This document shows positions 4,440-27,463 of a stretch of DNA of 33,181 nt, in pieces; position 1 is the first letter of the stretch; each line of letters starts with the position of its first letter. The translations under genes were made by a program, and so were the position numbers. A model generated the notes under the pieces. The model searched no databases. It was not told the origin of the DNA and was given only the letters and a program-made list of their open reading frames with translations. The DNA comes from Rhodococcus sp. IITR03 (GTDB lineage Bacteria; Actinomycetota; Actinomycetes; Mycobacteriales; Mycobacteriaceae), in the NCBI GenBank assembly GCA_001017865.1, contig LATQ01000001.1, positions 2,955,262-2,988,442 on the forward strand, written 5' to 3'.

Positions 4440-6406
4440 ATGACCACGAAGATCACCGTCGAACGTCCCGGAATGCTCACGACCGTCCAGGACTATCCCG
4501 GACGCACCGGTTACTGGCAGATCGGTGTGCCGCCGTCCGGGCCCATGGACGACCTGTCGTTCCGCCTCGGCAACGTCGCCTCGGCAACGACGAGGGTGCT
4601 CCCGGCCTCGAGACCACCATGGCCGGCCCCGCCCTGCGGTTCACGGAGGAGACCGAGGTGTGCGTGACGGGTGCACCCGTCACCGTGCGCGTCGACGGAG
4701 TCGCCGTCCCGCAGTGGCGCCCGGTCACCGTCCCGGCGGGCGGCCTGCTCGACGTCGGAGCTGTCTCCGGACCGGGGTTGCGCGTCTACGTCCTCGTTCG
4801 CGGTGGTCTCGACGTCCCCGAATTCCTCGGCAGCGCATCGACCTTCACGCTCGGCACGTTCGGCGGTCACGAGGGTCGCACACTGCGCGAAGGTGACGTC
4901 CTCGTCGTCGGGGAGAACGCTCCCGACGCGAGCGCCCCGGTCCCCTCCGAGCACGTGCCCGCACTGAGCACGCGGTGGGAGATCGCGGTCACCGAAGGTC
5001 CGCACGGCGCACCGGAATTCTTCACCCGCGCCGACATCGACGCCTCTACGCCACCGATTACGAGGTGCACTTCAACTCCGACCGCACCGGCGTGCGGCTC
5101 ATCGGCCCCAAACCCGAATGGGCGCGCACCGACGGCGGTGAAGCGGGCCTACATCCGTCGAACATCCACGACAACGCCTATTCCGTCGGCGCACTCGACT
5201 TCACCGGCGACACCCCGATCCTGCTCGGTCCCGACGGTCCCAGCCTCGGCGGTTCGTGTGCCCGGTGACCGTCGTGGCCGCCGACCGCTGGAAGCTCGGC
5301 CAGCTCGCCCCCGGCAACACGGTCCGGTTCGTGCCCGTGAAGTCGCAGCACACCGCCTCCCGACGCGAACTCGGCGTCGCGCGTCGCGCTGGACTGTCGC
5401 TGGTCACCTCGGCCGGTGGCGACGGCGACGACGGGGTGCTCACCCGTCGTGACGGCCACACCGCCGTCACCTACCGCCGCAGCGGCGACGACAACGTCCT
5501 CGTCGAGTACGGCGACATGACCCTCGACCTGGCACTGCGGGCCCGCGTGCACGCGCTGCACCAGCGTCTCGAAGCAGACCGTCCCGCCGGTCTCCTCGAA
5601 CTCACCCCGGGCATCCGGTCACTGCAGGTCAAGGTCGACCCCGACGTCCTGTCCGTGCCGACCCTGCTCGGCCTGCTCGGCGAGGTCGAGGACACCATCG
5701 GCGACAGCGACGAACTCGAGGTCCCCAGCCGGCAGGTGCGACTCCCGCTGTCCTGGGACGACCCGGCGACCCGCGAGGCCATCCAGCGCTATATGCACGG
5801 CGTGCGCTCCGACGCCCCTGGTGCCCCTGGAACATCGAGTTCATCCGCCGCATGAACGGCCTCGACACCGTCGCCGACGTCTTCGACACCGTCTTCGCCG
5901 CCGACTACATGGTCCTCGGCCTCGGCGACGTCTACCTCGGCGCCCCGGTCGCGACGCCGCTCGACCCGCGGCACCGCCTCGTCACCACCAAGTACAACCC
6001 CGCCCGCACCTGGACCCCGGAGAACGCCGTGGGCATCGGCGGCGCCTACCTGTGCATCTACGGCATGGAAGGTCCCGGTGGCTACCAGTTCGTCGGCCGC
6101 ACCACCCAGGTGTGGAACCACCGGCACCCGCAGCCCGCCGGCCCGTTCGAGGACGGCACCCCGTGGCTGCTGCGCTTCTTCGACCGCATCTCGTGGTACC
6201 CCGTCGACCCCGACGAACTGCTCGACCTGCGAGCGGATCTCGCTGCGGGTCGCGGTGGGGGAGTGGAGATCACCGACGGCACCTTCTCCCTGGCCGAGCA
6301 CCGGAAGTTCCTCGCGGACAACGCTGCTTCGATCAGCGAGTTCCAGGCGACGCAGTCCGTCGCCTTCGGTCAGGAGCGCGCGCGGTGGAAGGCGAACGGC
6401 GTATGA
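4440..6406 (+). CDS. Free-standing carboxyltransferase (AHS2-AHS1) of the urea/guanidine carboxylase family (four apparent frameshifts)
   Basis: About 656 residues, matching the carboxyltransferase half of urea or guanidine carboxylase. Order: AHS2/KipA-like domain ([70 protein letters not shown]), then AHS1/KipI-like domain ([75 protein letters not shown]). The usual N-terminal ATP-grasp biotin carboxylase and C-terminal biotinyl domain are both absent: the protein starts directly with AHS2, 7 bases after the upstream stop, and ends after the AERERW-like helix ([12 protein letters not shown]). Bases are missing near 4584, 5045, 5252 and 5818. It must work with a separate biotin carboxylase/BCCP or have another role such as 5-oxoproline metabolism (PxpBC are homologous). 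The DUF1989 neighbours favour the guanidine/urea side. Confidence 0.82.
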
Positions 6407-8218: not shown

Positions 8219-9697
8219 ATGATCATCACCGGTGTCGCCGTGTGCCTCGTCGTACTTCTCGGGGCCGGCTTCTATTCCACCCGCAAGGTCCGCGGACAAG
8301 CCGGGAACTTCCTTCTCGCAGGTCGCTCGCTCGGTGCTCCTGTCCTTGCCGTCCTGCTCATGTCGCAGGTCATCGATTCCAACGCGACCCTCGGTTCCGC
8401 CGACCTCGCGGCCGGATTCGGATTCTGGGCCGGAGCGGCGATGCCGCTGGGTGTCGCGCTGAGCGTGCTGCTCGTCGGAGTGTTCTTCGCGAAGCGCCTA
8501 CGCGCGACGGGTGTCGTGACCCTGCCCGAGTTCTTCGCGCGTCGCTTCGGACGCGGTACCGAGATCACCGCCTCGGTCCTCACAGTCGGGAGCTTCGGCA
8601 TCCTCCTCGCCGGCAACCTCGTCGCCCTCGGCTACCTGCTCCAGTACTTCCTCGGCCTGAACTACACGGCCGCGGTGCTGGTGATCATCCCGTTCGTGCT
8701 CGCCTACACCATGGCCGGTGGCATGTTCGCCAGCGTCTACACCGGTCTCGTGCAGTTCGCCGTCATGGCGGTCGGCATCGTCTCGCTCCTCGCCTGGACG
8801 GCCTTCGGGCCCGGCTTCACGCACGGCGAGGGCCTGGGCATCGGCGATATCGGTCAGCTCACCGATCCGGCGCAGGGGGCCGCGATCAACTGGGCGACCA
8901 TCACCGCCCTCGGTCTCGGCAACCTCGTCGCCATCGACTTGATGCAGCGCGTCTTCTCCGCCAAGTCCCCGGCCGCTGCCCAGCGTGCCTGTTTCGGTGC
9001 GGCGACCGGCATCCTCGTCCTGTGCGTGCCGCTGTCCTTCGTGGCCCTCGCTGCGGTGTCCATCGTCGGCGACACGGCGGGTGCGCCGATCCTCTACGTC
9101 CTGCTCGGTGAGTACACCCCGAAGGTGCTGTCGATCCTGGTGCTGTCCGGTCTGGTGACGGCCTCGCTGACCACCATCAGCGGCGTGCTGCTGTCCACCG
9201 CAACGGTTCTGGTGCGCAACGTCTTCCGGGTCGGCGGCGAGAACGCCGCGATGTCGTCGGACGTCATGAAGGCCACCCGCCTGCTCATGCTCCCGATGGC
9301 CGCCTTCGGTGCCCTTGTCGCCCTGCGGGTCCCGCAGACCGGCATCCTGCTCACCCTCACCTTCGACCTGCTGCTCGCCTCGCTGGTCGTGCCGTTCATC
9401 CTCGGACTGTTCTGGTCGCGCGGTGACGGTCGCGCCGTGGCCGCCGCAGCGATCGCCGGCATCACGGTGCGCGCCGGCTTCTTCGTCCTCACCCCGACGA
9501 TCTACGGCGTCGACAACACCCTGCTGTACATCCCGAACTCTCTGGTCACTTCGAGCGTCGACGGCTGGACGACCTTCCTCGGCTTCCTGGTCTCGCTGGT
9601 CGCATACGTGACCGTCGCGCTGGTGCGCCGTCCGGTCCCGACGATCACGGTGCCGGAACCCGTCGTCGTCCCCGCGAAGCAGCCGGTCGCGGTGTAG
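8219..9697 (+). CDS. Sodium:solute symporter (SSS family)
   Basis: Intact 492-residue integral membrane transporter, last gene of the operon. ATG 8219 follows GGAG at 8210. About 13 hydrophobic segments run through the protein, starting with VAVCLVVLLGAGFYSTRK. SSS hallmarks are NFLLAGRSLG after the first helix, then PEFFARRFGRG, GMFASVYTGLVQF, and NLVAIDLMQRVFSAKSP with the sodium-site helix ITALGLGNLVA. A long glycine/alanine-rich C-terminal half ends in a proline/valine tail. The family brings in sugars, amino acids, urea, purines and similar solutes with sodium. From its operon it probably imports the nitrogen compound processed by the upstream enzymes. The TAG stop is the first base triplet of a palindromic repeat. 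Confidence 0.9.
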   Translation: MIITGVAVCLVVLLGAGFYSTRKVRGQAGNFLLAGRSLGAPVLAVLLMSQVIDSNATLGSADLAAGFGFWAGAAMPLGVALSVLLVGVFFAKRLRATGVVTLPEFFARRFGRGTEITASVLTVGSFGILLAGNLVALGYLLQYFLGLNYTAAVLVIIPFVLAYTMAGGMFASVYTGLVQFAVMAVGIVSLLAWTAFGPGFTHGEGLGIGDIGQLTDPAQGAAINWATITALGLGNLVAIDLMQRVFSAKSPAAAQRACFGAATGILVLCVPLSFVALAAVSIVGDTAGAPILYVLLGEYTPKVLSILVLSGLVTASLTTISGVLLSTATVLVRNVFRVGGENAAMSSDVMKATRLLMLPMAAFGALVALRVPQTGILLTLTFDLLLASLVVPFILGLFWSRGDGRAVAAAAIAGITVRAGFFVLTPTIYGVDNTLLYIPNSLVTSSVDGWTTFLGFLVSLVAYVTVALVRRPVPTITVPEPVVVPAKQPVAV

Positions 9698-20197: not shown

Positions 20198-21116
20198 ATG
20201 GGCAGTTCTCCGGCCCCTGAGCGAATTGCCGAATACCCCAGACCTTCGCACACGCTGCTCCATCTCACCGACACCCATCTCGTCGGTGGAGACGAACTCC
20301 TCTACGGCACCGTCGACGCCGACACCCGCCTCGCTGATCCTCGACGACATCCGTGCCTCCCGGGTCCGACCCGACGCCCTGGTGTTCACCGGCGACCTCG
20401 CCGATCGCGGCCAGCCCGATGCCTACCGCAAGCTCCGCGGACTCGTCGAACCACTGGCCGCAGCACTCGACGCCGAGATCGTGTGGGCGATGGGCAACCA
20501 CGACGACCGCGCGACCTTCCGTGAAGAGCTGCTCGACGAAGCGCCCCTCGGCGCACCGATCGACGCCGTCCACGCCGTGGGCGGACTTCGGATCGTCAGC
20601 CTCGACACCTCGGTCCCGGGCCACCACCACGGTGAGGTGACCGACGACCAGCTCGCCTGGCTGGCCGACGAACTCGCGACACCCTCGCCTTTCGGTACCG
20701 TTCTCGCACTGCATCATCCGCCCGTGCCGAGCGTGTTCGACATGGCCGTCCTCGTCGAACTGCGCGACCAGGCCGGTCTGGCCGAAGTACTGCGCGGCAC
20801 CGATGTCCGCGCCATCCTCGGCGGTCATCTGCACTACTCGACCTCGGCCACGTTCGCGGGCATCCCGGTGTCCGTCGCCTCGTCGACCTGCTACACGCAG
20901 GACCTGAACGTCCCGGTCGGTTCGCAGCGCGGGCACGACGGCGCGCAGGGTTTCAACCTCGTGCACGTCTATCCCGACACGATCGTGCACTCCGTGGTGC
21001 CCAGCGGAAGCTACGCCACCGCCGGGCAACCCCACACGGCCGAGGACGCGGCGCGGTGTCTGGCCGAGGCCGGCATCCGCATCCCCGAGAACCCCGACCT
21101 CACCGTTCGGATCTAG
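20198..21116 (+). CDS. cpdA: Class III cyclic-nucleotide phosphodiesterase / metallophosphoesterase (CpdA, Rv0805-like; frameshifted)
   Basis: Dinuclear-metal phosphoesterase, about 306 residues, expected to hydrolyse 3',5'-cAMP. All metal motifs are present in order: D25-x-H27 (DTHLVGG), GDLADRG, GNHD, the His in ALHHPP, and GGHLHYST. The C-terminal part ([26 protein letters not shown]) matches the mycobacterial Rv0805 protein. Start ATG 20198 sits after GTGAGAG. Two bases appear to be missing near 20335, restoring [18 protein letters not shown]. The gene is convergent with a Stealth gene and overlaps it by 17 bases; in M. tuberculosis Rv0805 and Rv0806c stand in the same order. The 162 bases in front (20036-20197) show no clear element. 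Confidence 0.87.
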
Positions 21117-22715
21117 CCGACGTCCGGTCGGCCCGGGTGGTCGGTCTCCCAGGCGCCGGAATCGGGTAGTACCGCTCCAGGAACTGCGTGACCTTCGCGG
21201 TGCGCAGCTCCAGGTCGACCTCGGGCGTGCTGCCGTCGTTGAGGCAGAACAGGTCGAGATTGCGACGCGCCAGGATCGTGTCCAGATGTCGCAGACCGGA
21301 CTTCACGGTGGTGTCGACGTACTCCACCTTCGCCGTGGTCTGCTGCACCGCGCGGCCGGTCAGCAGCGTGTAGTAGTGGTAGAAGGAGTTCGTCACCGAG
21401 ATGTTGTCTGCCGCCCGGAACGGGCTCGCCGCCGTCGCAGCGAACTCGTCCGCGAACTCGCGTTCCATCTCCGCCATGATCGACCTGCGCAACGGGACCG
21501 GCGTGTGTTCGAGGTGCCGAGTGATGGTGACCCCGAAGCGATCCTGCAGGAGCTTGCGGTTCATGCGGGCGGAGTTCTCGAATCCGCTGCGCGACGGGTC
21601 GTTCCGGCCGAGCCCGATCCGCACGTCGCACTCGATGAACTTGCTGACACCCCCGCCGGAGAAGAACAGGCTCGGGCTCACCCGGCGACCGAAGAACATG
21701 TCGTCGTTCGAATACAGGAAGTGCTCGGACAGCCCCGGGATGTGGTGCAGTTGCGACTCGACCGCCATCGAGTTGTAGGTGGGCAGCGCCGACGGGTCGG
21801 CGAAGAACTCCTCGCTCCGCACGAACGTCACACGCGGGTCGTCGGCGAGCCACGCCGGTCGCGGCGAGTCGGTGGCGACGAAGATCCGCCGCACCCACGG
21901 CGCGTACATGTGGACCGAACGCAGGGCGTACTTGAGTTCGTTGATCTGCCGGTAGCGCGCCGGCGAGTCGTCGCCTTCGCCGACGACGTAGTTCTGCATC
22001 AGCTTCGCGCGCTTGGCCTGGAACGACTTCGACGACCCGTCCACCCACGAGAACACGAGGTCGATCTCGAACGGGATGTCGCCGGGGTGGCGGTCGAACA
22101 TGCCTCGATCGTGGGCCACAGCTGTCCGTACCGCTCGACCGTCGTGCGGCGCATCTCGTCGCGCAGGGCGACCGTGCGGGTGAGGGCGTTCGGGCGAGGC
22201 ATGATCACCTCGTCGTCGGTGTAGGTCCACAGTTCGATGTCCACACCGTTCGACGCGCCGTACCGCATCCCGCTGGTCAGTTCGACGCGCGGGCGGAACA
22301 GCCGGAACACACGGTCCTTCCTGTCGCGTGAGAGCCGTCCGTCCGACACCGGGACCGGGCGTCGCTTCGAGCCGACGGCCTTCGAGTAGAACGGCTCGTC
22401 GGCGCACCCCTCGGCGAGCGCGGCACGCAGCCTCTTCCGATCGGCGCGGTCGATCGCCAGGATCGGGCGGTCGCTGTCGTCGCGCACGAGCAGGTAGTCG
22501 ATGTGCGCCCGATCGAGGACGCGGCGCAGGAACAGCACGTCCTCGATCTGCGCTTCGTCGGGCGTCGTGGTAGTGATCGGGATGGCGTAGCGATCCTCGA
22601 ACCACACCACTTCCTGGTGTTTCGCCGGCCCGCGGACCGTGGAGCGGCCGAGGGGAGGAGCGTCTCCGAACTGCGGAGAAAGGGAGACGTAGGGAGCGTT
22701 GTGGGTGGCCGGCAT
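21100..22715 (-). CDS. cpsY: Stealth-family sugar-phosphate transferase (CpsY-like; one apparent frameshift)
   Basis: Stealth proteins are hexose-1-phosphoryl transferases that build phosphate-linked surface polysaccharides. About 538 residues. The N-terminal actinobacterial extension has [23 protein letters not shown]1 is [15 protein letters not shown]2 is [21 protein letters not shown] with [15 protein letters not shown]3 contains [14 protein letters not shown]; the late region with [12 protein letters not shown] and [14 protein letters not shown] fits CR4. One base is missing near 22100 (GAGGGC read as GAGGC). ATG 22715 follows AAAGGAG at some distance. A TAAAAT hexamer (minus strand, 22759-22764) may be its -10. 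It is the probable Rv0806c counterpart next to the phosphodiesterase. Confidence 0.88.
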
Positions 22716-22871
22716 GTGCGTCGGAATCTCCTTTCACGAGTCGGGGACGAGAACGATCATTTTAACGTCGATCTGAGCTAAGTTCTCGCGTAGGCGATGT
22801 GACGATCCTGTGAACGCCGACCCTGCCGGCTCTCGAAGGCCGAACCGGTGCCGTGTAGCCTGTCCGCAGGA

Positions 22872-22950
22872 CTCGACACGGGGTGCCGGAAACGGCTGAG
22901 AGAACACCCGTCGAACCTGATCTCGATTATGCGAGCGAAGGGATGCCGAG
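22872..22950 (+). promoter_or_regulatory. TPP (thiamine pyrophosphate) riboswitch
   Basis: All conserved parts of the THI box are present. P1 arms CTCG (22872-22875) and CGAG (22947-22950); GGGGTGCC; the pyrimidine-sensing CTGAGA (22895-22900) in the P3 side; ACCCGT closing P2; and the pyrophosphate-side helix ACCTGATCTCG, TATGCGAG, followed by the diagnostic GCGAAGGGA (22934-22942). It lies 65 bases before the SDR start on the plus strand and reads into it. By the family rule, binding of TPP turns expression of the downstream genes off. Confidence 0.95.
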
Positions 22951-22986
22951 CCGGCGCCGGGCCACAGGTCTGTCGCCCTCACGCAC

Positions 22987-23006
22987 CCTTCCCCACACAG
23001 GGAAGG
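22987..23006 (+). promoter_or_regulatory. Shine-Dalgarno-masking hairpin downstream of the TPP riboswitch
   Basis: Perfect 7-base arms CCTTCCC (22987-22993) and GGGAAGG (23000-23006) with a CACACA loop. The right arm contains the likely ribosome site GGAAGG, 8 bases before ATG 23015. This suits a translation-initiation expression platform. There is no U-tract, so transcription termination is unlikely. Confidence 0.7.
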
Positions 23007-23014
23007 CACAGAAG

Positions 23015-23779
23015 ATGTCATTGCAGAACCAGGTCGTCCTCGTCACCGGCGCCGGTCGCGGCCTCGGCCACTCCATCGCGCAGGCGTTCGCCGACGAAGG
23101 AGCCGCCGTCGTCCTCGACTACCGGCGCAGCGGCGAGGGTGCCCACGAACTGGCCGCCAAGATCGGACCCGAACGGGCGGTCGCGCTGAAGGCCGATGTC
23201 ACCGACCGCGCCGACGTCGAATCGCTGTTCACCCGGGCCCGCGAGCACTTCGGACGTCCCGTCACCACGGTCGTCAACAACGCCCTGCCCGACTTCTCGT
23301 TCAACGGCGACGCCCGGCCCAAGGCCGACGAGATCGGATACGACCGGTTCGGAGCCCAGTTCGACGGCGTCATCGGCGGCGCGGTCAACGTCATCCAGGC
23401 AGCGCTGCCCGGCATGCGGGAAACCGGCGGTGGCAGCATCGTCAACATCGGCACCAACCTGTTCCAGCATCCCGTCGTCCCGTACCACGACTACACCGCC
23501 GCGAAGGCCGCGCTGCTGTCGCTGACCCGCACCTTCGCCGCCGACCTCGGCCCCGACGGGATCCGCGTCAACATGGTCTCCGGGGGTCTGTTGCGCACCA
23601 CCGACGCGTCGTCGGCGACACCCGAAGCGGTGTTCGATCTCATCGCGTCGTCGACGCCGCTGCGGAAGGTCACCACGCCCGAGGACTTCGCGGCCGCGGT
23701 GCTGTTCTTCGCCTCCGACTGGTCGCGAGCCGTCACCGGACAGAACCTGGTGGTCGACGGGGGACTGGTGATGAACTGA
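23015..23779 (+). CDS. Short-chain dehydrogenase/reductase under TPP riboswitch control
   Basis: Intact 254-residue classical SDR, NAD(P)-dependent. The Rossmann motif is TGAGRGLG (T11-G18), VVNNALP replaces the usual NNAG, and the catalytic pair is Y160-x-x-x-K164 (DYTAAK). The Ser normally 13 residues before the Tyr is Thr147 (NIGTNLF), an uncommon but possibly working change. The C-terminus FFASDWSRAVTGQNLVVDGG is typical. ATG 23015 is chosen because the ribosome site lies in the hairpin at 22987-23006. The stop overlaps the next start as TGATG. With the flavin monooxygenase it probably forms a two-step oxidation route for a thiamine-related or sulfur-containing heterocycle; this is inferred from the riboswitch. 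Confidence 0.9.
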   Translation: MSLQNQVVLVTGAGRGLGHSIAQAFADEGAAVVLDYRRSGEGAHELAAKIGPERAVALKADVTDRADVESLFTRAREHFGRPVTTVVNNALPDFSFNGDARPKADEIGYDRFGAQFDGVIGGAVNVIQAALPGMRETGGGSIVNIGTNLFQHPVVPYHDYTAAKAALLSLTRTFAADLGPDGIRVNMVSGGLLRTTDASSATPEAVFDLIASSTPLRKVTTPEDFAAAVLFFASDWSRAVTGQNLVVDGGLVMN

Positions 23780-25083
23780 TGGCCGGACCACGCACTCTTC
23801 ACCTCAACGCCTTCCTCTACGGCGTCGGACATCACTCGTCGGCGTGGCGGCATTCCGGTTCCGCGGCCGAACGCGTCGGCGACATCACGTATTTCGAGGA
23901 ACTCGCCCGTACCGCCGAACGGGGATGCCTCGACGCGGTGTTCTTCGCCGACGGTCACAGTGTCAACCCGAAGTACACGGCAGGCACCACGTGGTTCCTC
24001 GAACCGCTCACCGCACTGTCGGCGATGGCACGCGCGACCGAGCACATCGGTCTCGTCACCACCGTCTCCGCGAGCTTCTTCACGCCCTTCCACGCCGCCC
24101 GGATGCTCGCCTCGCTCGACCACATCAGCGGGGGACGGGTGGGCGCAAACATCGTCACCTCGATGTTCGACGAGGAAGCATGCAACCATGGATTCGACTC
24201 CCTGCCACCGCACGCCGAACGGTACGCGCGGGCAGAGGAATTCATCGAGGTGCTCTACGCGCTGTGGGATTCGTGGGACGACGGCGGTGTCCTCGTCGAC
24301 CGGGCGGGCGGCAGGTTCCTCGATTCCGACGCGATCCGTCCGATCCATCACCAGGGCAAGCACTTCCGTGTCGACGGTCCGCTGACCGTGCCGCGGTGCC
24401 CGCAGGGTCGTCCGGTGCTGTTCCAGGCGGGAGCGTCGGAGACCGGGCGCAACCTGGCGGCTCGCCATGCCGAGGCCGTCTACTCCGTCGCGTGGGACAT
24501 GACCGCGGCGCTCGAGTACGCCACCGACCTGCGCGCGCGGATCGCCGCGGCCGACAGAGATCCCGGTACGGTCGCCATCCTGCCCGGACTCGTCACCTAC
24601 GTCGGTCGCACCGAAGAGGAGGCGTGGGCGAAGAAGGCGGAACTCGATGCCCTCCTCGACATCGATGCCGCCATCACCCAGCTCGGCGTCTTCACCGGTC
24701 AGGACTACACCGGCCACGACCTCGACGCGCCGGTCGCCGACCTGCCACCCATCGAGGAGTTCAGCGGGCCGCAGGGGCGCTACGCGACGGTGCAGCGCAT
24801 CATCGAGACCCGCCGCCCCACCCTGCGCGAACTGCTCGGTTACCTCGCCGCGGGCGGTGGTCACGCGACCATGATCGGCACCCCCGAGTCTGTCGCCGAC
24901 AGCATCGAGGAATGGTTCACCGCGGGCGCCTGCGACGGCTTCAACCTCATGTGCCCCGCCTATCCGGATTCCCTCGACGACTTCGTCGACCTCGTCGTCC
25001 CGGAACTGCAGCGTCGTGGCCTGTTCCGGACCGAATACCCCGGCTCGACCCTGCGCGACTCGCTCGGTCTGAAGGCGCTGTAG
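23779..25083 (+). CDS. LLM-class FMN-dependent monooxygenase, NtaA/SnaA/DszA family, under TPP riboswitch control
   Basis: Intact 434 residues, the normal length of the family. It uses reduced FMN supplied by a separate reductase. Marks include LHLNAFLYGVGHHSSAWRH, YFEELARTAERGCLDAVFFAD, TWFLEPLTALSAMARATEHIGL, DHISGGRVGANIVTS, RYARAEEFIEVLYALWDSW, HHQGKHFRVDGPL and GRPVLFQAGASETGRNLAARHAE. Members open sulfur and nitrogen heterocycles or cleave C-N bonds (dibenzothiophene sulfone, nitrilotriacetate, EDTA). Coupled to the SDR by TGATG and hence to the riboswitch. A thiamine, thiazole or pyrimidine breakdown product is a reasonable substrate guess. No flavin reductase gene is adjacent. The TAG stop opens repeat B1. 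Confidence 0.9.
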   Translation: MAGPRTLHLNAFLYGVGHHSSAWRHSGSAAERVGDITYFEELARTAERGCLDAVFFADGHSVNPKYTAGTTWFLEPLTALSAMARATEHIGLVTTVSASFFTPFHAARMLASLDHISGGRVGANIVTSMFDEEACNHGFDSLPPHAERYARAEEFIEVLYALWDSWDDGGVLVDRAGGRFLDSDAIRPIHHQGKHFRVDGPLTVPRCPQGRPVLFQAGASETGRNLAARHAEAVYSVAWDMTAALEYATDLRARIAAADRDPGTVAILPGLVTYVGRTEEEAWAKKAELDALLDIDAAITQLGVFTGQDYTGHDLDAPVADLPPIEEFSGPQGRYATVQRIIETRRPTLRELLGYLAAGGGHATMIGTPESVADSIEEWFTAGACDGFNLMCPAYPDSLDDFVDLVVPELQRRGLFRTEYPGSTLRDSLGLKAL

Positions 25084-26180: not shown

Positions 26181-27463
26181 TCAGCCTCCCGGCGTCGGCG
26201 CGGGTGTGCTCTCCTCCGCTCCGGGAGCCCGTGCCGGGTCGCCCGGCGGCTGGTAACTGGAACCGTAGAAGATCGGCAGGATGCCCTTGACGAGGGTCAA
26301 TGCCGAACCTTCGCCGGACGGCACCGTCGACAGGTTCGTGGCGATGACGATCGTCAGGTCGGTCTCCGGGTCGTGGCCCATGAAGGTCATGAAGCCCGGA
26401 AGCTGACCGTCGTGTCCGAGCAATGGACCGAACTGTGCCATGCCGAGGCCGTAGCCCGCGGTTCCCCCGCCCACCGACTGCACGCTGTCGAGCCGGGCCT
26501 GCTGCATCTGCTCGTCGAGCAGACCACCACCGACCAGCGCCTTCACGTAGGTGGTCATGTCGTCGACGGTAGAGATGGCGGCGCCCGCCGTCCACGCCCA
26601 GGATGGATTGTCGTCGGTCACGTCGTTCGGCTTCAACGTCCCCGCGACCGCGGCGGCCTGCTCGTCCTCCGGCAGCGCGAAGGTATCGATGGTGGAGACA
26701 TTGGTGCCGAACATGTAGCCCTGCGGATGTGGGTCGGGGATCGAAGCATCGTCGATTGCGGGGAACGAGGTGTTCCCCAGCCCGAGCGGAACGAAGATGC
26801 GCTCGTCGAACGCCTCCGCGACCGGCATGCCCGTCAGTTGCTCGATGACGAGTCCGAGCAGCACCGTATTGGTGTTGCTGTATTCGAACTGCTCTCCGGG
26901 CGGGAAGTTCACGGGCTGGGAGAACGCGATCTGCAGCAGCTCCTCCTGCGTCCACGCCTTCTCGGGTTCGCGGTCCAGCGTCGCGTTGAACTCCGGATCG
27001 AAGGTGTAGCTGTACAGGCCGCTCCGCATCTCGCGAGCTGCGCGATGGTGATCGTGTCGCCGTTCGGGACGCCGTCGATGTACTTCGAGATCGGGTCGTC
27101 GAGCGACAGGCGACCGTCCTGCACCAGCTGCAGGACGGCGGTTACGGTCATTGTCTTCGTATTGCTCCCGATCCGGAAATGATCGTCGGCGGAGATCGGG
27201 TCGTCGGCGTCGATGGTGGAGGTGCCGAACGTGCCGGTCCAGTCACCGCGGTCGGGGGAGCTGATCTGGAGCACTGCGCCGGGAATGGCATTGTCGCGCA
27301 TCAACTGCTCGACGGTCGACTCCAGCTCGGCCACGTACTCGGGCTGGGCCTGATCGGAGGAGGGCGGGGATGGCGCGGACTCTGGCTCGGCGGTGTCGGA
27401 ACTGCACGCCGACGCGGTCAGTACGGCCACCGCCACGAGCGAGGCTGCGAGTGTCTTCATCAA
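26181..27463 (-). CDS. Serine hydrolase lipoprotein, beta-lactamase / D-Ala-D-Ala carboxypeptidase fold (one apparent frameshift)
   Basis: Cell-surface penicillin-binding-like hydrolase of about 428 residues. The N-terminus is a lipoprotein signal (MMKTLAASLVAVAVLTASAC, lipid-bearing Cys20), then a Ser/Pro-rich linker. The catalytic motifs are S100-x-x-K103 (GSNTK), Tyr in YSNTN and H-x-G in LGHDGQLPGF, as in class C beta-lactamases and the EstB/DD-peptidase group. The C-terminal tail is Pro/Ala-rich (PGDPARAPGAEESTPAP). One base is missing near 27035 (QLA to MRSGLYSY). Divergent from the alcohol dehydrogenase. Peptidase or esterase activity fits; true antibiotic resistance is not implied. 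Confidence 0.85.

Follow-up and report, generated by a model that had tools for sequence, protein, structure and literature searches.

A thiamine pyrophosphate riboswitch precedes a short-chain reductase and a flavin monooxygenase that probably form a thiamine-salvage module

In a stretch of 33,181 nucleotides from Rhodococcus sp. IITR03 (contig LATQ01000001.1, positions 2,955,262 to 2,988,442 of the forward strand; this whole stretch is called the window below), a thiamine pyrophosphate (TPP) riboswitch stands in front of two overlapping genes. One encodes a short-chain dehydrogenase/reductase (SDR), the other a luciferase-like monooxygenase (LLM) dependent on flavin mononucleotide (FMN). We propose that the pair is very probably a thiamine-salvage module repressed by TPP. 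The case for the linkage of aptamer and pair and for their salvage setting is strong, and that for the anatomy of an OFF switch is good. As an explanation of the whole, we rather favor a thiamine-salvage operon that is switched off by TPP and performs the chemistry proposed below. Taken by itself, that chemistry is tentative.

A first-pass annotation had recognized a complete THI box before an SDR and a flavin monooxygenase of the NtaA/DszA type, and profile searches bear this out (Table 1). At Rfam thresholds, cmscan found a single RNA match in the whole window, the TPP riboswitch RF00059, which exceeds the gathering score of 54.3 bits (E 1e-10) and is complete, covering model positions 1-105. 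The SDR passes the NF006393 cut-off of 292, carries both SDR motifs (TGxxxGxG and YxxxK) and belongs by this profile to the classical SDRs of the PRK08642 group. The LLM passes the TIGR03860 cut-off of 279.7 over residues 9-427 and has the fold of the solved members of that family. The stop codon of the SDR and the start codon of the LLM share one base (TGATG). The listed open reading frame of the SDR begins with GTG at 22883, within the aptamer, and the first-pass annotation let the unit begin at 22872, 3 bases inside it; we set the start of the SDR at ATG 23015, because a Shine-Dalgarno (SD) sequence is present there and the resulting length is typical of the family.

The linkage is conserved. 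A scan of species genomes gave 25 relative loci (handles beginning with L denote loci, those with G genomes), mostly from Rhodococcus at 82-94% identity, with Arthrobacter and Paeniglutamicibacter at 68-72%, Nocardiopsis at 64-66% and one Paenibacillus at 46%; some are partial. Twenty of them were scanned with Rfam, and the aptamer precedes SDR and LLM in 19, in one of these (L043) standing directly before the LLM. The sole exception by Rfam is the 46% Paenibacillus relative, in which no aptamer was found. The first-pass annotation had named loss of the pair behind the riboswitch in relatives as an outcome that would speak against it, and the opposite is seen. The other five loci were scanned with a covariance model built here, which found the aptamer in L033, L047 and the truncated L054 and none in L052 and L055, both of which hold only LLM pieces. 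The loci with LLM pieces only come from R. xishaensis (L052), Nocardiopsis kunsanensis (L054, with aptamer and SDR) and R. aetherivorans (L055). With the same model, the aptamer was found by the LLM in 38/38 full-length clade loci and, in three further sets that overlap with these and with each other, in 26/27, 29/30 and 39/40; another set of SDR or pair loci had it in 11/11. The misses are L099 and L121, the latter near a contig end. In R. ruber NBRC 15591 (L031), tandem TPP aptamers (5795-5889 and 6090-6182), about 200 bases apart, precede SDR and LLM.

The aptamer follows one lineage of the monooxygenase. We built a midpoint-rooted tree of 118 distinct LLM sequences, leaving out matches with fewer than 390 aligned residues or with stops. 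A clade of 103 sequences (support 0.84) holds every aptamer-linked one; 101 of its members have the aptamer (100 by pattern, L061 by model) and the remaining two are L121 and L099. None of the 15 LLMs outside the clade has an aptamer; they comprise the Paenibacillus sequence and 14 Rhodococcus paralogues of 46-51% identity. Twenty positions, for example W72, M129, H137 and G360, are at least 95% conserved in the TPP-linked clade and occur in no more than 10% of the 15 unlinked sequences. Neighboring genes are kept within genera at most, and aptamer, SDR and LLM stay together. In public records, the two proteins are called only "3-oxoacyl-ACP reductase" and "LLM class flavin-dependent oxidoreductase".

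The arrangement recurs across three phyla. In the family of the window (Mycobacteriaceae in the GTDB sense, 201 genomes), the LLM is present in 38 genomes (E up to 1e-160), and Micrococcaceae carry it in 52 of 197. The order aptamer-SDR-LLM occurs also on plasmids of Pseudochrobactrum (Alphaproteobacteria; LLM 57%, aptamer 70 bits), Mesobacillus foraminis (Bacillota; LLM 50%, aptamer 82 bits) and Rhodococcus sp. DMU1, three examples picked by hand out of the 728 plasmid records that gave some match to the LLM. Among the matches listed in a protein search were two proteins of Halomonas (67% and 65%).

The neighborhood of the pair points to its pathway. We inspected 51 Micrococcaceae loci with flanks, 34 picked for the LLM (L140-L173), 9 from the species scan (L035-L041, L049, L053) and 8 (L209-L216) picked for an SDR in the absence of a strong LLM match. 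The first-pass annotation had asked which thi and ten genes accompany such riboswitches, and at 6 of these 51 loci we found the pair or its SDR within or next to thiM, thiE and thiD genes; 4 loci have YkoEDC-like transporters near the pair. In L155, one aptamer leads SDR, ThiM, ThiE and ThiD, and another aptamer with the LLM lies two genes further 5'; the SDR of L155 and that of the window share 62.7% identity. In L214, aptamer, ThiM, ThiE, ThiD, SDR and LLM follow each other in the same direction, the LLM frame being broken in the assembly. L146 and L168 show aptamer-SDR-LLM and then aptamer-ThiD-MFS-ThiM-ThiE (L168 as annotated with Pfam, L146 as assigned by its 67-76% match to L168). Finally, L209 and L210 carry aptamer-SDR alone, divergent from aptamer-ThiM-ThiE-ThiD, in genomes where no strong LLM match was found. 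The transporters of L161, L162 and L170 lie behind aptamers of 41-49 bits by the scores of our own model alone; that of L147 lies behind the LLM, with aptamer and ThiD upstream. The pair or its SDR thus belongs to the same operon or regulon as thiD, thiM, thiE or genes that transport precursors, as a member of a salvage pathway does. Because it stands in or beside thiM-thiE-thiD, or near a YkoEDC-like transporter, in some Micrococcaceae loci, we consider a thiamine-salvage module the most likely assignment.

Some of these loci hold further genes. Near the pair in L147 (9645-12617, minus strand), a thymidylate-synthase-like gene accompanies a TPP aptamer and ThiD, a grouping that recalls bacimethrin-type clusters. 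Carbon-nitrogen hydrolase genes, 70% alike, adjoin the pair in L165 (4026-4853) and L170 (8735-9577) and could possibly perform an amidase step for formylaminopyrimidine. In L211, a further TPP aptamer (8970-9071) lies about 4 kb from the SDR-LLM locus.

Predicted folds of the leader suggest a translational OFF switch. A platform that sequesters the SD sequence is known for many TPP riboswitches, and the window's leader is predicted to have a similar one. When the platform is folded in isolation (22961-23017), a hairpin of 22987-22993 with 23000-23006 covers the SD sequence. In the minimum-energy fold of the whole ligand-free leader (22869-23030), 22937-22942 pairs with 22986-22991 and the SD sequence is largely free. 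The two predicted pairings are mutually exclusive. A wider comparison began with 187 loci, of which 157 had a clear start and aptamer motif; they gave 77 distinct leaders, and 72 were used after those with odd spacing were dropped. In these 72, pairing of the aptamer 3' strand with the anti-SD region beats shuffles that preserve base composition only (mean z -2.3; 75% below -1), and in 46 of 68 leaders the local fold pairs 75% or more of an SD-like core. With TPP present, the aptamer would be folded, the anti-SD strand would cover the ribosome site of the SDR and translation would be low. With TPP absent, the 3' strand of the aptamer would capture the anti-SD strand, and SDR and the overlapping LLM would be made.

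What might the two enzymes do? We hypothesize that the LLM, supplied with reduced FMN by a general reductase, oxidizes the CH2 that links the aminopyrimidine to a nitrogen, its candidate substrates being aminomethylpyrimidine, damaged thiamine or thiamine itself. The product would be 4-amino-5-formyl-2-methylpyrimidine, an aldehyde that the SDR would reduce to 4-amino-5-hydroxymethyl-2-methylpyrimidine (HMP), and HMP would then be phosphorylated by ThiD. In cases where the thiazole is set free as well, ThiM and ThiE could return it to thiamine phosphate. On the boldest reading, the LLM would be an oxidative thiamine-splitting monooxygenase that acts on thiamine or on products of its breakdown and releases their pyrimidine in aldehyde form, and the pair would be an O2-dependent route to HMP beside TenA; we hold this specific version still more tentatively than the proposed chemistry in general. 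Among family members, NtaA, EmoA and RcaE act at C-N bonds. In CmoJ, a close solved relative, an alkyl group leaves in the form of an aldehyde, with O2 as the source of oxygen (PMC10863075), and a flavin N5-oxide is used by RutA, DszA and HcbA1 (PMC7662398).

The pyrimidine side of thiamine is favored over the thiazole side on family chemistry and gene content. Salvage from the thiazole side would have the LLM perform C-S chemistry on a modified or oxidized thiazole, or on an S-alkyl or thiol form of thiamine, after which the SDR would restore the hydroxyethyl alcohol and ThiM would phosphorylate the thiazole. The best-scoring solved relatives of the LLM are YtnJ/CmoJ, then NtaA and BdsA; CmoJ and BdsA cut C-S bonds, and analogous C-S chemistry is performed by CmoJ, DszA and BdsA on their own substrates. 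ThiM also lies directly 3' of the SDR in L155. However, ThiM, counted only when the match is stronger than about 1e-25 (fewer than the Pfam cut-off admits), is missing in 9 of the 38 LLM-bearing Mycobacteriaceae. The raw association of ThiM with the LLM is strong (29/38 against 39/163 other genomes) and vanishes within genera (p 0.92). Thiazole should rarely be short, because ThiG, which makes thiazole phosphate, is present in 200 of the 201 genomes. We therefore regard salvage from the thiazole side as unlikely.

A bypass of ThiC, with the pair building HMP or HMP phosphate de novo from some other metabolite, would be attractive if the raw counts were taken at face value. ThiC was found in 147 Mycobacteriaceae genomes, in one of them as a broken piece. 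It is missing in 25/38 LLM-bearing genomes compared to 30/163 others (odds ratio 8.5, p 3e-8), counting G467, whose piece has a stop, as absent. When shuffled within genera, the association has p 0.19. In Micrococcaceae, ThiC is missing in 35/52 LLM-bearing genomes compared to 83/145 others (p 0.25); the broken pieces of G634, G668 and G680 were included in one count and excluded in another. ThiC of G727, which is split in two, was scored as present. Among 16 distinct hosts outside these families, 10 have ThiC. Thiamine auxotrophy has been verified for R. ruber ZM07 (PMC7758286). The pair is present in R. ruber NBRC 15591, and G008, taken as the assembly of NBRC 15591, gave no ThiC match; the pair thus apparently does not build HMP de novo. 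Since many hosts have ThiC and an R. ruber strain is a published auxotroph, and since the raw link fails the within-genus permutation and the second family, we rejected the pair as a ThiC substitute and consider such a bypass highly improbable. R. equi has lost thiC and needs thiamine (PMC2947987; PMC11893733). In a community degrading tetrahydrofuran, thiamine changed expression in ZM07 (PMC10269752), and the passages of that report on which we draw do not name the SDR and LLM genes.

Absence of TenA offers weak support for a replacement pattern. We sought TenA (TENA_THI-4) in 80 genomes picked by hand; its losses are grouped by lineage, and the outcome varies with the threshold. A strong TenA (E up to 1e-15) is missing in 13/56 genomes with the LLM and 0/21 without it (p 0.015); by the Pfam cut-off, the numbers are 7/56 and 0/21 (p 0.18). 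The strong form is missing in 8/38 LLM-bearing Mycobacteriaceae, 5/18 LLM-bearing Micrococcaceae and both genomes with SDR and thiM-thiE-thiD (G664, G728), and present in G621. Six of the 8 TenA-poor Mycobacteriaceae are the nearest relatives of the window and have a weak half-length paralogue over the Pfam cut-off. All 9 of the 80 genomes in which no TENA_THI-4 match passes the Pfam cut-off carry LLM or SDR.

Four TPP aptamers were found in the nearest genome (G001). One precedes the pair, one thiO (followed by thiG), one thiC and one an ABC importer of NMT1/THI5 type. A precursor-type importer together with the lack of a full TenA would fit handling of an imported pyrimidine by the pair. The aptamer of the importer (L101, 9825-9921, minus strand) precedes genes for an NMT1/THI5-domain binding protein and an ABC transporter, ThiXYZ-like. 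ThiC with its own aptamer lies on a separate, replicon-sized contig of 423 kb (L103, G001:C2), and no ThiC was found in close pair-bearing relatives.

Several observations weigh against the proposed salvage module or limit it. In a class-wide draw, the LLM unit was found in only 6/394 genomes (E up to 1e-170), so it is not common. L099 (G501) is the one clear exception in the clade, a pair in which no aptamer was detected. Each enzyme is also found without its partner: no SDR accompanies the LLM in L043, L082-L084 and L091, and G664 and G728 have the SDR but no strong LLM match. The z-scores of the single-leader folds, platform and whole leader, are modest (-1.1 and -1.3), and the window's own group is weak in the duplex test of 72 leaders (about -0.3 to -0.8; L006 -0.3). 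Because of the 9 LLM-bearing Mycobacteriaceae lacking ThiM, thiazole release is evidently not needed everywhere, and because TenA co-occurs in most hosts, the pair is no simple TenA substitute. At Mycobacteriaceae loci, queries derived from Micrococcaceae found no thi or transporter neighbor except a partial ThiD-like match in L091; given the origin of the queries, other thi genes may have been missed there. Most loci, moreover, have no thi neighbor, which would suit an indirect role, in which the pair supplies sulfur or clears a toxic by-product during thiamine shortage, is under TPP control on that account and makes no thiamine precursor. Several TIGR03860 enzymes do serve sulfur acquisition or pollutant breakdown. 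Such a role is hard to reconcile with the pair or its SDR inside a thiM-thiE-thiD operon (L155, L214) or adjoining one (L146, L168, L209, L210), and we find it quite improbable. The salvage route suggested by the first-pass annotation thus gains from the predicted TPP control, from conservation and from its setting (thiM-thiE-thiD and YkoEDC-like neighbors), while its substrate part stays conjectural.

The aptamer is of the same family, and above the gathering score, as those of TPP regulons of biosynthesis and transport, but it would govern an SDR and an LLM monooxygenase instead. In a 2013 regulon survey, TPP regulons consist of genes for biosynthesis and transport, and the words oxidoreductase, dehydrogenase and monooxygenase are all absent from its main text (PMC3766115). 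In Paenibacillus thiaminolyticus, a TPP-controlled locus that joins thiaminase I with thiM, thiD and thiE was proposed to serve salvage (PMC5627462); there the splitting enzyme is unrelated and extracellular, whereas here a monooxygenase of intracellular type and an SDR would take its place. Salvage of base-degraded thiamine by TenA and YlmB reaches the same end that we propose for the pair, HMP from a breakdown product. It does so by hydrolysis, whereas the pair would be oxidative and reductive, and by matched families the two systems share no homology; most of the hosts tested carry TenA along with the pair, and some give no full TenA match. Both its profile score and its fold place the LLM with the TIGR03860 enzymes YtnJ/CmoJ, NtaA, EmoA, BdsA, DmoA, HcbA1 and the riboflavin lyase RcaE, and its TPP-linked clade stands apart from the 15 unlinked relatives in a tree that did not include the solved members. 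The first-pass annotation knew of no described pathway with this pair, and we too found no description of a TPP-linked SDR-LLM pair in the open-licence PMC papers searched, which are only a part of the literature. As far as these papers show, the proposed salvage module consists of enzymes previously unassigned to thiamine salvage. Surveying THI elements in 2002, Rodionov and others reportedly named an SDR-type "oarX" as THI-linked; if so, the SDR half may have been noticed before. Among the matches listed for that name, none was a bacterial paper.

The features of the locus are collected in Table 1. A TAxxxT-like hexamer, seen by eye, stands at about the same place as the putative -10 element in the printed leaders of relatives. 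Directly 5' of the riboswitch, on the other strand, lies a gene for a Stealth-domain protein with regions CR1-CR4 (21100-22737, minus strand), and a gene for a beta-lactamase-family protein occupies 26181-27029; neither of these annotated flanking genes has an evident tie to thiamine.

Table 1. Features of the riboswitch-controlled pair in the window
Feature	Position	Strand	Basis
Putative promoter -10 element TAGCCT	22856..22861	+	By eye, just 5' of aptamer
TPP riboswitch aptamer (THI element)	22869..22960	+	RF00059, 64.7 bits
Aptamer 3' strand GAAGGG, predicted partner of anti-SD strand without ligand	22937..22942	+	Minimum-energy fold 22869-23030; trend in 72 leaders
Anti-SD strand, common to two mutually exclusive predicted pairings	22986..22993	+	Folds
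SD-like GGGAAGG, presumably covered by anti-SD hairpin when aptamer is folded	23000..23006	+	Fold of 22961-23017
SDR-family oxidoreductase, 254 aa	23015..23779	+	NF006393, 423.7 bits; TGAGRGLG and YTAAK
LLM-class FMN-dependent monooxygenase, NtaA/DmoA family, 434 aa	23779..25083	+	TIGR03860, 533.4 bits

Salvage of vitamin B1 is usually told through ThiM, ThiD, ThiE, TenA, YlmB and transporters; through riboswitch and operons, SDR and LLM would join this list. The association also gives an assayable class of substrates for a monooxygenase clade that lacks an assigned one. It could explain the use of B1 breakdown products by soil actinobacteria that require thiamine. If oxidative splitting is true, then an O2-dependent recovery of HMP, shut off by TPP, would exist beside TenA in three phyla.

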